Below, piece by piece: positions 11,778 through 16,212 of a DNA stretch of 64,000 nucleotides. Position 1 is the stretch's first letter. Every line of letters starts with the position of its first letter. The notes below the pieces were generated by a model, which did no database searches, was not told where the DNA came from, and saw nothing but the letters and a program-made list of their open reading frames with translations. This DNA comes from an uncultured Bacteroidia bacterium (GTDB taxonomy: Bacteria > Bacteroidota > Bacteroidia > Bacteroidales > Prolixibacteraceae), in the NCBI GenBank assembly GCA_903918045.1, contig CAIXCY010000064.1, forward strand, positions 1 to 64,000. The letters are read 5' to 3'. Made by a program: the position numbers and the translations under genes.

Positions 11778-14222
11778 CTAGAATCCTACACTGACACTAA
11801 ACATAAAATTAGCTCCTGCCTGAGGGAAATAACCATCCATCTTATTTCGTCTTCCCTGGTAAAGATAGGAGTAAACCCAGGCATTACTTTCGTATTGTTT
11901 ATTGAAGAGATTATTAATCAATAATTTGAACTTAAGTTCCTTAAATATTTTTTGATCAGGCGTATAATCAAACTTAAGGTTATTCACCAGATATGCCTTC
12001 AATTTCCGGTCATTACTCGATGTGTTATCAATATACTGTTTACCAACGTAATTGGAAAGAAGGCTAATCTCAAAATTTGAACATAACCGATATGCCAAAA
12101 TACTATTGGCGATTAGGTCGGGCGAGAAGGCCAGGTCCGATTTGCCTATCGTATTGGCCTTTAATCCACTGTTATCCCAATCTTCAACGTATTCCGTAAA
12201 ATTCTCAATTTTATTACTGCTAATTGTTACATTCAGATTCCAGTTAAATTTCCGAAGAAATTTGATACCTGCCATAAATTCAACCCCTGTACGGGAACTT
12301 TTATCAACATTGGTCATGATCGGGGCTCCGGTACTGTTGATCTGGCCGGTATGAATCAACTGGTTTTTGTAACTCATAAAGTAGATGTTTGTTCCAGCCA
12401 TCAGATTTGATGATTTATATTTATAACCCAGCTCAAAATCATTCAGAGTTTCAAAAGTCGGTTGTTTCCCGGTCTTATCAGCATCTACGAAATTATCCCT
12501 GTTCGGCTCGCGATTTGCGCGGCTATAACTTAGATACGCCTCCTGATGAACTCCCGGGGTATAAAACAAGCCGAATTTTGGATTGAAAAAGTTATAATTA
12601 TGAATCTGAGTTACATCTCTTAACTTTTCATCAATGCCGCCAATCTCATAATTGATAGTGCGATACTGAAGATCGGCTGTTGTATTTAGATTTTCTGTTA
12701 TCTGATTAGAATATCTGGCATACAGGTTATTATCCTTTTTGAGCCCTGATCCGCGATACCATTCATAATCCATGTTTGCATCACCTGCCGTTTTAGCCCA
12801 AATCACCCTTCCATAATGTTGACCATCATAAACATTTGCCCCTCCACCAACGCTGAGTGAATTTGCCTTATTTTTATAATTCAGGGAAAATATCATTCCA
12901 TAAAAGCTATTGTCTAGCCACTTTCGGGTTATCATATCTGTAATTTCAACACCTGTGCCATTAATTACGGGATTTGCAAGTTGGTAGTCGGCGTAGCTTT
13001 GATCGGCAACATATTCTTCATAATAACCCCGACCGTAGGTATAAAAAGCGGATGCGTTTAAATTCAGATAAGCATTGAACTTGTGTGAAAACTGGAGTTG
13101 ATAGTTGTCCTGCTGATAATGGTCAACCTGATTTTTGTAGGTGTAAAGATTGTAAGTTCTGCTATTTGAATTAAGCATATTCAGAGTCTGTTCATGCGTG
13201 TACATGCCGTCCGTTTCGTACTGATTCATCCCCGCCACATCGTTATTAAGCCTCACGGATGGTACCCCATTCCACGCCTGATAAGTTTGCTCAAAACCGG
13301 AGAAGACAGTCGCTTTTAGAATTGTGTTTGGCGTAAAATACCCCCCTGAAACAAAAAATGATTTAAGATCGGAGGATCCGCGGTCAATAAATCCGGCAGA
13401 ATTAAGCTTTGACATGGATATATCCATTGCAAATTTGCCGTTCAATAGGCCAGTGCTGGCGCTCAGGTTATTCCGAAAGGTACTGAAAGATCCCGCCGAA
13501 GAGCTGTAATTTGCCTTTGCTTCAGGGTTCAGCTTACTGGTTTGCAAATCGATGGTTGCACCAAATGCTGCTGCGCCGTTTGTTGAATTTCCGACACCGC
13601 GCTGGATCTGGATATTCTCTGTTGAAGCCGCCATATCGGGAATATCGACAAAATAGGTACTTTGTGATTCAGCATCCGACATTGGAATCCCATTAATCGT
13701 AACATTAATTCGGGTAGGATCGCTACCTCTGATCCTGAAATTTGTATAACCAACGCCATTCCCTGCATCAGAGGTGGCTACAAACGAGGGGGTATAATTG
13801 AGCAAATAGGGGATATCCTGACCCAGGTTCGAAGCCTGAATCTCCTCTTTCCCAATGTTTGTATAGGCCATTGGAGACTTCTCCCCTGCCCTGGCTGCCG
13901 AAACCAAGACCTCTTCTGTCAAAACGGTGGTTGGTTCAAGAACAAGCTCCACCGTCCGTGAATTGGATAGCGTTATCTCTTTACTGAAATTCTTATATCC
14001 GACAAATGTTACCACAAGGGTATAGTCCCCCTTTGGGAGGTTTGAAAATTTAAAATCTCCGTTGATCCCTGCGGTGGTCCGGCTAAAGGTGTTTTTCAGT
14101 GTCACATTGGCGCCACTGAGTGTCTCGCCCTTTAAATCCTTTACAATCCCGGTCAGCGAAAACTGGCCGAAAACGATGGCTGCGATGAACTGCAAAGCCA
14201 AAAGTAATCCAAATCGTTTCAT
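11778..14222 (-). CDS. TonB-dependent outer-membrane receptor under TPP riboswitch control, probable thiamine receptor
   Basis: An 814-residue outer-membrane receptor. It has a signal peptide (RFGLLLALQFIAAIVFGQ), a carboxypeptidase-regulatory-like domain at about 20-105 (FSLTGIVKDLKGETLSGA to LVVTFVGYK), a plug domain with NFRIRGSDPTRINVTINGIPMSD and RGVGNSTNGAAAFGATI, and a 22-strand-type barrel ending in aromatic SVSVGF. Such receptors import scarce ligands using TonB energy. Two TPP riboswitches on the same strand lie in the 361-base leader, so the likely ligand is thiamine or a precursor, as known for riboswitch-controlled receptors in Bacteroides. No other thiamine gene is nearby. Confidence 0.9.
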   Translation of the reverse strand: MKRFGLLLALQFIAAIVFGQFSLTGIVKDLKGETLSGANVTLKNTFSRTTAGINGDFKFSNLPKGDYTLVVTFVGYKNFSKEITLSNSRTVELVLEPTTVLTEEVLVSAARAGEKSPMAYTNIGKEEIQASNLGQDIPYLLNYTPSFVATSDAGNGVGYTNFRIRGSDPTRINVTINGIPMSDAESQSTYFVDIPDMAASTENIQIQRGVGNSTNGAAAFGATIDLQTSKLNPEAKANYSSSAGSFSTFRNNLSASTGLLNGKFAMDISMSKLNSAGFIDRGSSDLKSFFVSGGYFTPNTILKATVFSGFEQTYQAWNGVPSVRLNNDVAGMNQYETDGMYTHEQTLNMLNSNSRTYNLYTYKNQVDHYQQDNYQLQFSHKFNAYLNLNASAFYTYGRGYYEEYVADQSYADYQLANPVINGTGVEITDMITRKWLDNSFYGMIFSLNYKNKANSLSVGGGANVYDGQHYGRVIWAKTAGDANMDYEWYRGSGLKKDNNLYARYSNQITENLNTTADLQYRTINYEIGGIDEKLRDVTQIHNYNFFNPKFGLFYTPGVHQEAYLSYSRANREPNRDNFVDADKTGKQPTFETLNDFELGYKYKSSNLMAGTNIYFMSYKNQLIHTGQINSTGAPIMTNVDKSSRTGVEFMAGIKFLRKFNWNLNVTISSNKIENFTEYVEDWDNSGLKANTIGKSDLAFSPDLIANSILAYRLCSNFEISLLSNYVGKQYIDNTSSNDRKLKAYLVNNLKFDYTPDQKIFKELKFKLLINNLFNKQYESNAWVYSYLYQGRRNKMDGYFPQAGANFMFSVSVGF

Positions 14223-14270
14223 TTAATAATACTTAAAATGGTTAAAAAATAACCAATGAGGAGGTAATTA

Positions 14271-14358
14271 TCCAATCGCCATCCCTACACCGGCATTATC
14301 CGGATCAGGTTCGGTGGGTTTGATCTCAGCCCGCTTTCTTCAGGCACCCCATTGCGTA
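14271..14358 (-). ncRNA. TPP riboswitch, gene-proximal copy
   Basis: Read on the minus strand the element has GGGGTGCC, an AT-rich stem-loop, GGGCTGAGATCAAACCC (the pyrimidine-sensing THI-box core with CUGAGA), GAACCTGAT, then CCGG-ATAATG-CCGG and GTAGGGA. All conserved blocks of the TPP aptamer are in order. It ends about 50 bases before the receptor start codon. Between the two lies the possible hairpin GGTTA-N5-TAACC and no clear T-run, so control may act on translation. Confidence 0.95.
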
Positions 14359-14431
14359 ACTTAATAGAAAATCAGGAAATTACCCGTGAGGGCAAATCCG
14401 GACATAATTGTGAATAATTAGAAGGTAATAC

Positions 14432-14458
14432 AAAAACGGAATGATTTTTCATTTTCCC
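14432..14458 (-). terminator. Possible attenuator hairpin after the distal TPP aptamer
   Basis: On the minus strand a GGGAAAATGA/TCATTCC stem with an AAAA loop is followed by GTTTTTG. The stem has one unpaired base. It overlaps the GGGAA end of the distal aptamer, so the two structures would compete. A weak call based only on reading the pairing. Confidence 0.35.
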
Positions 14459-14532
14459 TTTCCGGCATTACCCGGACAGGTTCGATGGGTTTGATCTCAG
14501 CCCGCTTTATTTAGGCACCCCTTATTATTATG
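14455..14532 (-). ncRNA. TPP riboswitch, gene-distal copy with altered conserved bases
   Basis: A second THI-box lies about 100 bases upstream of the first on the same strand. It has GGGGTGCC, GGGCTGAGATCAAACCC, GAACCTG and CCGG-GTAATG-CCGG. It is almost identical to the proximal copy. However, the junction after GAACCTG reads TCCGG rather than ATCCGG, and the segment before AGGGA reads AA rather than TGT. Both losses hit conserved parts of the aptamer, so ligand binding may be weakened. Confidence 0.88.
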
Positions 14533-14583
14533 GGACAAAGGTAAGTTAAAAAATGATAAATGAAAATTATCAAAATATCAGTC

Positions 14584-16212
14584 CTATCGCATCGTAAAAA
14601 CCAAAAAATTAATTGTCGCAGGTGCAATTTCAAGTTCAAAACCCTCCTTTAAGGACAATTGAAGTTCTTTTTTGGTCTCCATCACGTTGTTTTTTCCAAA
14701 TGTATTTATTGCATTTAGCGACGCGGCCGAATAGGAGACATACTCTATGAGTTTCATGGTCATACCTTGTGGTAAATGATTGATAGCAATACCGGTCAAC
14801 ATAGATTTGCGTTGAGACAGGTTCAGCACGGCAAGAACGACCGTTTTGAAATCATCTGAGATCGTAGCTGTTGCATCGACTGATTGTTGGTTAGATTCAA
14901 ACTTTGGGGAATTCACCTCAGCATCCAAATGATTCTCAAGCGTATATTTCCGGAACGCCTGCAGGGGTGTATAAACAGTCTGGCAAAACGAACCCTCTTT
15001 GCTGGTCATTATCGGAGCCAGAACATTGACGGTCTGGGCCCAGGTTGCCAGCCCTATTATATCCGAATTTCGCTGAAAGATGTTTAGAAACTTTGCAGTT
15101 GCAAGGGCGTGCGACCAGTTATAGGTGTACTCCAATTGATAGGCGCCGCTCCCTTTTCCGGAATTTGCATCCCAGATCCCCCATTCATCAACAGCGAGTT
15201 TTACCGGTTGTTGACGGGGTGGAAAACGATACCAGGGAGAAAATCCGGAAACATTATCCGGGATAGTTTTCAGAACTTCCCTTAAGGAGTCAAAACTTTG
15301 ATTGAAATTCTCAACACTCTGAAGCAATCCCGAATAGGTGGTATCGGAGGGCATCGCATAAAAATGAACCGATAGAAAATCGCAAACCGGGTGTATCTCC
15401 TGCATTAATTTTCTGCTCCAGCTCAGGTCTGAAGGATTTCCGTCCAGCGTTATTTTAATTGTGGGATCCTGCAGCTTCATAAGCTTTATAAACTGCCAGC
15501 TATCTTCAATGTATCTTTTGATATTCTGATCCTTACCTGCATCGGGAGCAGCACTCTCCTCATTTCCGATGCCCCAGTATTTTACATTAAACGGCTTTTC
15601 ATACCCCTGTGAACGTCTGAGATTGGCATAGAACGTATCTTCAGTTCCATTGCAATATTCCACCCAATTAGAAGCCTCCTCGGGGGTACCTGTCGCCATA
15701 TTGACAATGAGAAAAGGTTCTGCACCAATCTGCCGACAATAGTCAATAAACTCGGAGGTACCAAAGTGGTTATCGTTGACCCCTCCCCAAATCAGGTTTT
15801 TCCGTCTTGGGCGCTTGCGCTTCTCCCCTATTCCATCCTGCCAGTGATAGATCTTGACTACGGTTCCTCCCGGAAATCGCAGGAGCGGAGTTTTTAAATC
15901 TTTTACCTTTTGAAGTACATCCTGTCGAAACCCGTTCTCCGAAGACAACGGTGAACCTTCCTCATAAATTCCGCCATCGATACACCGACCCAGGTACTCG
16001 ATAAACTGGCCATAAATTAGCGGAGCTATTTTTGTCGCAGGCTTATTCAGATCTACGGTAATTGTGGCCTTTTCGATCGTTAAGCCTTCATTTTTAAACC
16101 CTTTAACATCATCCACTTTCAGAATAGAGTGAGGGTGATTAACAGCGGAGGAGCGTACAACGAGCACAAGAATAAAGAATGTGGCAATTAATAATAGCCT
16201 CTTTTTCATCAC
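14584..16212 (-). CDS. GH51 alpha-L-arabinofuranosidase
   Basis: An exported glycoside hydrolase of 542 residues that releases arabinofuranose from arabinan or arabinoxylan. An N-terminal signal (KKRLLLIATFFILVLVVRSSA) suggests periplasmic or surface location. The TIM-barrel domain shows LIYGQFIEYLGRCIDGGIYEE, LRFPGGTV near 112-118, the acid/base in WGIGNEE (Glu218) and the nucleophile in VDEWGIWD (Glu343). A beta-sandwich domain from about 440 completes the family layout. It starts three bases after the stop of the DUF5916 gene, so the pair is one operon. No SusC/SusD pair adjoins it. Confidence 0.93.
   Translation of the reverse strand: MMKKRLLLIATFFILVLVVRSSAVNHPHSILKVDDVKGFKNEGLTIEKATITVDLNKPATKIAPLIYGQFIEYLGRCIDGGIYEEGSPLSSENGFRQDVLQKVKDLKTPLLRFPGGTVVKIYHWQDGIGEKRKRPRRKNLIWGGVNDNHFGTSEFIDYCRQIGAEPFLIVNMATGTPEEASNWVEYCNGTEDTFYANLRRSQGYEKPFNVKYWGIGNEESAAPDAGKDQNIKRYIEDSWQFIKLMKLQDPTIKITLDGNPSDLSWSRKLMQEIHPVCDFLSVHFYAMPSDTTYSGLLQSVENFNQSFDSLREVLKTIPDNVSGFSPWYRFPPRQQPVKLAVDEWGIWDANSGKGSGAYQLEYTYNWSHALATAKFLNIFQRNSDIIGLATWAQTVNVLAPIMTSKEGSFCQTVYTPLQAFRKYTLENHLDAEVNSPKFESNQQSVDATATISDDFKTVVLAVLNLSQRKSMLTGIAINHLPQGMTMKLIEYVSYSAASLNAINTFGKNNVMETKKELQLSLKEGFELEIAPATINFLVFTMR

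Follow-up and report, generated by a model that had tools for sequence, protein, structure and literature searches.

Why should the gene of a single outer-membrane receptor be preceded by two TPP-type riboswitch aptamers, one of which lacks bases that are otherwise conserved? The question is raised by a window of 64,000 nucleotides from an uncultured bacterium of the Prolixibacteraceae, in which the two aptamers lie in series on the minus strand, 5′ of a gene for a TonB-dependent receptor (Table 1). The original prediction for this DNA proposed a recent tandem duplication and left two options for the distal copy, decay or retuning. Here the locus is analysed by covariance models, comparison with related genomes and a survey of similar aptamers across the phylum; published work is cited from excerpts of the papers named.

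Two aptamers in front of one receptor

RF00059 matches both copies over the full length of the model (positions 1-105), the proximal one with an E value of 4.6e-14 and the distal one with 3.5e-8, and Pfam assigns plug, barrel and CarbopepD_reg_2 domains to the receptor, which together bear out the tandem arrangement. The details given in advance were accurate as well: in the sequence and in the RF00059 alignment the distal copy is altered at two places, by exactly the bases noted, the proximal copy keeps its conserved blocks, and the gene upstream is unrelated, a relative of alpha-L-arabinofuranosidases. A role of the receptor as OMthi is predicted by analogy with BT2390 of B. thetaiotaomicron (PMC5613172).

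With 74.1 bits and all conserved blocks in place, the proximal aptamer exceeds the RF00059 gathering score of 54.3 and is a canonical TPP riboswitch; the distal copy, at 50.2 bits, does not reach this score, so that a default scan of the window lists the proximal copy alone. The two matches are separated by 76 nt, and 104 nt lie between the distal AGGGA and the P2 of the proximal copy. No third RF00059 match was detected genome-wide at E up to 0.001 (150 of 337 first-look candidates scored). The HMP-PP riboswitch (thiS motif), a class included in Rfam 15, gave no model match, and RF00059 stood alone in 13000-16000 at E up to 1.

Both alterations of the distal copy fall in J4/5. Where the proximal aptamer reads GAACCUGAUCCGG...CCGG-UGU-AGGGA, the distal one reads GAACCUG-UCCGG...CCGG-AA-AGGGA: the 5′ strand of J4/5 is shorter by one base than the canonical G60-A61-U62, and C77-G78 are gone from the 3′ strand. 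In the RF00059 alignment, P2 and the pyrimidine-binding CUGAGA T-loop are present; the pyrophosphate pocket of J4/5 with C77-G78 is absent, and one covarying pair is in place.

Table 1. Features of the tandem riboswitch locus and its neighbours (positions in the window)
Feature	Position	Strand	Basis or remark
Alpha-L-arabinofuranosidase relative, 5′ of both aptamers	14584..16212	-	same strand; outside the unit
TACCTTTG, match to Bacteroidota -7 box TAnnTTTG	14536..14543	-	sequence; 14 nt 5′ of distal P2
Distal variant (pocket-less) TPP-type aptamer	14438..14532	-	RF00059 50.2 bits, conservation, covariation
5′ side of distal J4/5: G (= G60), and U from the extra P5 pair	14476..14477	-	alignment
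3′ side of distal J4/5: A from the extra P5 pair, and A79	14460..14461	-	alignment
Spacer hairpin followed by U-rich stretch (UUUCUAUU), candidate terminator of distal switch	14371..14403	-	-12.3 kcal/mol
Proximal canonical TPP riboswitch	14265..14361	-	RF00059 74.1 bits
Proximal J4/5 5′ strand G60-A61-U62	14304..14306	-	sequence, RF00059 alignment
Proximal J5/4 U77-G78-U79	14287..14289	-	sequence, RF00059 alignment
CCUCAUUG, candidate anti-aptamer strand	14254..14261	-	complementary (one G-U) to CAAUGGGG at 14354-14347
UGGUUA-UUUUU-UAACCA hairpin and UUUU, candidate proximal expression platform	14235..14255	-	sequence
TonB-dependent receptor, predicted thiamine outer-membrane receptor (OMthi type)	11778..14222	-	Pfam

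When RF00059 was run over this genome and 40 relatives, the tandem was found in 14 of the 18 genomes of the genus, the present one included (in G001 with a wider gap between the copies), and the distal type alone in three (G012, G013 and G015), where it sits before the receptor; the remaining genome, G017, which is 78% complete, gave no RF00059 match. All 17 distal-type copies (14 tandem, 3 variant-only) have the double change in common. Their scores run from 42.2 to 57.7 bits and only three of the 17 are over the cut-off, so standard annotation misses most of them. The same change occurs in G024, from another genus of the family, again with the variant alone. On a tree of the receptors G013 is nested among tandem loci with supports of 88 to 100, and the canonical copy has probably been lost there; G012 and G015 branch off basally in the genus and do not tell which came first.

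These data bear on the idea that the distal aptamer arose by a recent tandem duplication and is now decaying. The copies do look alike, and the comparison of RF00059 scores that had been suggested returned, as foreseen, a low value for the distal one; that low score marks a different sub-type, however, and not decay. The idea is contradicted by the spread of the change, which is common to all 17 genomes of the genus that carry the variant, to the genus of G024 and to many other families, by the covarying pair at the altered site and by the presence of the variant as the sole copy in three genomes of the genus. Decay of a young duplicate is therefore very improbable, and of the two options in the original prediction 'retuned' was the right one. 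Judged by its sequence, the distal aptamer is a conserved variant and not a broken copy: the J4/5 loop has given way to an extra P5 pair, and the CUGAGA T-loop and L5 are kept.

The covarying pair in J4/5

In the numbering of the E. coli aptamer, U59-A80 belongs to P4, G60 together with C77 and G78 lines J4/5, and G78 contacts the pyrophosphate (PMC3764141); direct bonds to the pyrophosphate come from C77 and G78, the pyrimidine is held by G40, G42, A43 and G19, and the thiazole touches G72 only (PMC7824784). Aligned with E. coli thiM, the variant keeps U59-A80 and G60 and has an A at position 79, and a single pair, which extends P5, takes the place of the loop formed by A61-U62 and C77-G78; this pair lies beside G60 opposite A79.

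In an alignment of 70 variants, chosen by hand for diversity from 128 sequences, the new pair is formed in every member and by every combination (GC 22, CG 16, AU 13, UA 12, GU 5, UG 2). Cells of P4-P5 are paired in 99.5% of cases, the P4 bases being partly fixed by the search pattern; when the 3′ partners are displaced by one, two or three columns, this falls to 63.8% or less. A phylum sample collected with a pattern that does not require pairing has the pair in 19 of 19 sequences (two of them seen before), and a larger set obtained by regular expression has it in 125/131, with A79 in 122/131. Canonical aptamers found by a parallel expression carry C or U at position 77 and G78 in 77 of 77 cases, a uniformity that is partly the result of picking this set by high RF00059 scores. 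Base identity has been exchanged for pairing in the variant, which is the mark of selection on a different pocket rather than of decay.

The underlying sets need to be defined. Each of two regular expressions produced 131 sequences; the two sets overlap, and near-duplicates from the genus occur in both. The set used for covariation still includes the actinobacterial L099, and L099, L107, L114 and L132 were excluded from the 128-sequence set and from the hairpin scan (130 variants). Pattern matches ending in AAGGA, mostly from Actinomycetota and with C77-G78 kept, were omitted from the variant counts. In these TPP-type aptamers of Actinobacteria (Arthrobacter, Microbacterium, Corynebacterium and others) a single base is missing, from the 5′ strand of J4/5, and C77-G78 are retained; loci of this type include L074, L078, L080, L087, L090, L107, L114, L127, L140, L169, L171, L175 and L181. 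Six of these pattern matches comprise four before ThiC and two, L096 and L170, before a cytosine/thiamine-type permease, L096 being a Burkholderiaceae record.

Outside the junction, the base at the position of G72 is G in 115/131 variants and L5 reads GUAAUG in 106/131. The CUGAGA motif is likewise found in the wider variant class, where it was part of the search patterns. P1 is weak, with a median duplex energy of -1.2 kcal/mol (n=114) compared with -3.7 kcal/mol in canonical aptamers (n=72).

What could such an RNA bind? It may still sense TPP through other contacts, for example metal ions at G60 and adjacent bases, and form a pseudo-cooperative tandem with two affinities; tandem TPP aptamers are common, with 213 representatives described (PMC9481103). 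Yet both residues that directly bind the pyrophosphate are gone, the loop is one layer shorter and conserved bases have been replaced by mere pairing, and we regard TPP as an unlikely ligand, if one to be taken seriously. The weak P1 and a pyrimidine site that alone is clearly kept would also suit a sensor of something other than a B1 vitamer, such as HMP or a pyrimidine breakdown product, or a ligand-independent element with a structural or protein-binding function. Against these readings, L5 and the G72 position are kept in most members, and the regulated genes are those of TonB receptors and thiamine synthesis; they seem improbable to us.

Genes, genomes and the exchange of the two types

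Since an exact pattern misses other loops and junctions, the following genome counts are lower bounds: with CUGAGA, GAACCUG, the loop and the 18-nt spacing fixed and the pair left free, matches were obtained in 19 of the 393 genomes from the order, and with A79 fixed in addition, in 19 of the 395 from the phylum, all of them among the 98 of the window's class and none among the 297 outside it. A pattern scan of genome_contigs matched at least 118 stretches; among the 80 titles listed, all are Bacteroidota save those of the side group from Actinobacteria and a handful of individual records. Records labelled Klebsiella pneumoniae (L157) and Thermoanaerobaculia, Acidobacteriota (L119) carry the variant, and their receptors group with those of Flavobacterium and other Bacteroidota; these contigs are probably mislabelled or wrongly binned.

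The first gene lies within the stretch for 125 of the 131 variants, and 111 of these entered the scan, which omitted L099 and 13 further loci from the genus. It encodes a TonB plug domain in 102/111, a thiamine synthesis protein in seven (ThiC 4, Thi4 1, ThiE 1, ThiS 1) and neither in two. Among canonical aptamers, the scan covered 62 of 77 loci and omitted L131, L132 and 13 loci from the genus; the plug domain accounts for 36/62, and the remainder are largely Thi4, ThiC, ThiD, ThiM and ThiE. The enrichment of TonB receptors behind the variant (102/111 vs 36/62, Fisher p 2.5e-7) is indicative only, because the sets differ in taxa, the variant set coming largely from genome_contigs and the canonical set largely from one order.

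Where a genome has both types, two Aquimarina records place the variant before the receptor and a canonical aptamer before the ThiC gene, and G166 places the variant before the receptor and the canonical aptamer before ThiS; G119 is reversed, with the variant before ThiC and the canonical aptamer before TonB. A strict split, with the variant reserved for uptake and the canonical aptamer for synthesis, was considered and is out as a rule, since the seven synthesis loci among 111 and the reversal in G119 mean that the types do not strictly track gene function. In Anaerophaga thermohalophila (L131:3793-4162, minus strand) it is the tandem itself that is reversed, the canonical aptamer coming first and the variant lying beside the TonB receptor. 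G402, a genome that is 99% complete, has the variant at two places, before TonB and before ThiC (L053, L066), and two RF00059 matches in all, presumably those same places; this genome may lack a canonical TPP aptamer.

A FastTree phylogeny of 74 receptors (from 109 usable rows, thinned by script) requires 12 changes of the variant label and 11 of the canonical one, compared with means of 24 and 22 for shuffled labels, and well-supported branches force at least six label changes. L019 is labelled canonical on this tree, its variant copy having been removed as a duplicate, and is actually a tandem. The label changes indicate that the two types have replaced each other several times before the same receptor family. 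Alternation before related receptors is what a variant that still senses TPP would allow, as are its occurrence before thiC, thi4, thiE and thiS and the swapped roles in G119; the two variants of G402, before TonB and ThiC, would likewise be natural if the variant simply sensed TPP.

The metabolism of the genus would suit a different signal. ThiC was found in none of the 18 genomes of the genus and ThiE in none of the 16 searched; among the same number searched, thiamine pyrophosphokinase is present in one, and ThiL scores above the cut-off in 15, with a weak match only in G010. In view of this pattern, TPP must be made from the salvaged vitamin, probably by way of TMP. The route would lead from thiamin to TMP to TPP, and thiamin and TMP would be intracellular signals distinct from TPP.

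The present genome, which gave a match for ThiL and none for ThiC, ThiE or pyrophosphokinase, has one PnuC, which adjoins an AAA_28 (NadR-kinase-like) protein (G000:C240:52500-60000; L241:2839-4013). This protein is a candidate thiamin kinase; NCBIfam models also link it to nicotinamide riboside, and the pair could serve nicotinamide riboside uptake instead. Relatives of AAA_28 occur near 33/115 variant loci (30/95 in genome_contigs) vs 0/20 canonical loci, and pyrophosphokinase near 2/115 vs 4/20. An association of AAA_28 with the variant, in the place of pyrophosphokinase, was explored and is a lead only: flank sizes and taxa differ between the sets, and two loci point the opposite way. These two variant loci, L279 and L280, adjoin a TPP-forming kinase, so TMP need not arise by salvage there.

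Control of the receptor, ligand and relation to known riboswitches

The consensus of the Bacteroidota -7 promoter box is TAnnTTTG. Within 40 nt 5′ of P2 it is found at 85/114 variant and 47/72 canonical loci, and in at least 78 of those 85 variant loci it lies at 10-18 nt. With a match to this box 5′ of the distal P2, and the box common at such loci, the transcript probably starts with the distal aptamer and carries both, and the two switches would most likely act on one RNA.

As for expression platforms, the fold of the whole spacer, which contains the candidate terminator, has a z of -1.9, and a hairpin with U-run at -4 or lower occurs in the spacers of 8/12 tandem loci. Anti-aptamer pairing for the distal copy is uneven: its mean z over the 12 tandem spacers is -1.3, with five at -1.9 or below and three positive, and in the window itself it is +0.9. 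For the proximal copy, the candidate strand CCUCAUUG would pair with CAAUGGGG, part of P1/P2, and the best duplex falls on this motif in 12/12 tandem loci, which are related sequences, with a mean z of -1.8; only in 4/12 is the duplex equalled by 10 or fewer of 200 shuffles, and in the window (z -1.0) it is equalled by 31/200. The proximal switch may thus operate by a classical choice between aptamer and anti-aptamer. The UGGUUA hairpin was picked by the scan in L009 and L015, and in the window a longer hairpin in the same stretch was preferred. A similar element, CCUCAUUGGUUA...UAACCAUUUU, also follows the lone variant of G013 (L031), like that 3′ of the canonical aptamer in tandem loci.

In the wider class, 11/130 variants (L069, L081, L083, L091, L121, L136, L138, L148, L154, L160 and L164) have a hairpin with an energy of at most -10 kcal/mol and six or more U that starts 16 to 46 nt 3′ of the aptamer, and hence some members can control transcription. 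Any hairpin with U-run at -4 or lower is found after 38/130 variants and 23/76 canonical aptamers. An ON-switch, suggested by hairpin arms that overlap the 3′ side of the aptamer, was dismissed, as this overlap is seen in 10/38 variant hairpins but also in 11/23 canonical ones. Directly after the distal aptamer lies a further hairpin, AUGA-AAAA-UCAU (14454-14439, minus strand), which is recognisable by eye in many tandem loci, with varying U-runs.

We think it somewhat probable, from the sequence comparisons, that the leader holds two different riboswitches in series, a canonical TPP riboswitch next to the gene and a distal variant for which thiamin or TMP is the likely ligand. The distal aptamer would recognise the thiamin part of its ligand without pyrophosphate, as in thiamin or thiamin monophosphate; these are favoured by the lost pyrophosphate contacts and by the proposed route from thiamin through TMP to TPP. 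According to a 2022 paper from the Breaker laboratory (PMC9481103), which cites unpublished work of its own, some 'TPP' riboswitches prefer thiamin or thiamine monophosphate. The weak P1 of the variant and the uneven anti-aptamer pairing of the distal copy count against two such switches. Both would presumably turn the receptor off, and two off-switches in series would amount to NOR-like control with two inputs, confining receptor synthesis to times at which the salvage substrate and TPP both run short. The broader proposal is an even call: a widespread class derived from the TPP aptamer and specific for unphosphorylated thiamin or TMP, present in about one-fifth of the sampled genomes of the class, that would form a two-input gate with a canonical aptamer on an outer-membrane receptor, in hosts that are seemingly unable to make thiamine and mostly have no recognisable thiamine pyrophosphokinase.

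PMC9481103 calls TPP riboswitches the most abundant class of riboswitch, and RNAs of this fold are annotated as TPP sensors; a class-wide sub-type with its pocket replaced by a pair implies that some such annotations may name the wrong ligand. A simple rule sorts the two types: 18 rather than 20 nt from CCU to AGG, with the pair and a G opposite A. As natural two-aptamer constructs, the tandem loci allow a direct test of what each half binds. A search of the open-access literature, flavobacteria included and with subscription papers and preprints outside its range, returned no published description of the variant.

Among known systems, the HMP-PP riboswitch (thiS motif) senses a thiamine precursor and forms tandems with TPP switches, and is a separate class (PMC6478431, PMC9481103). 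The OMthi riboswitch of BT2390 in B. thetaiotaomicron resembles the present locus as a TPP-type riboswitch before a TonB thiamine receptor; the excerpt of PMC5613172 mentions duplication only for cases of a split operon, and no variant aptamer. The thiamin- or TMP-favouring variants of the Breaker laboratory are possibly the same RNAs, cited in the excerpt of PMC9481103 without sequence, structure or taxon, and the variant described here probably overlaps with what that laboratory has found. The proximal copy is a plain member of RF00059; the distal one shares P2, P3, the CUGAGA T-loop, P4, P5, L5 and gene context with that family, and departs from it by the missing A61-U62 / C77-G78 loop, the weak P1 and a score below the cut-off. 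The tandem TPP riboswitches of Sherlock et al. 2022 likewise have two TPP-type aptamers per leader and are, in the excerpt of PMC9481103, mainly same-ligand pairs, some of them noted as maybe differing; in the tandem described here, unlike those pairs, the pocket of one partner is consistently remodelled, and this partner is placed first.
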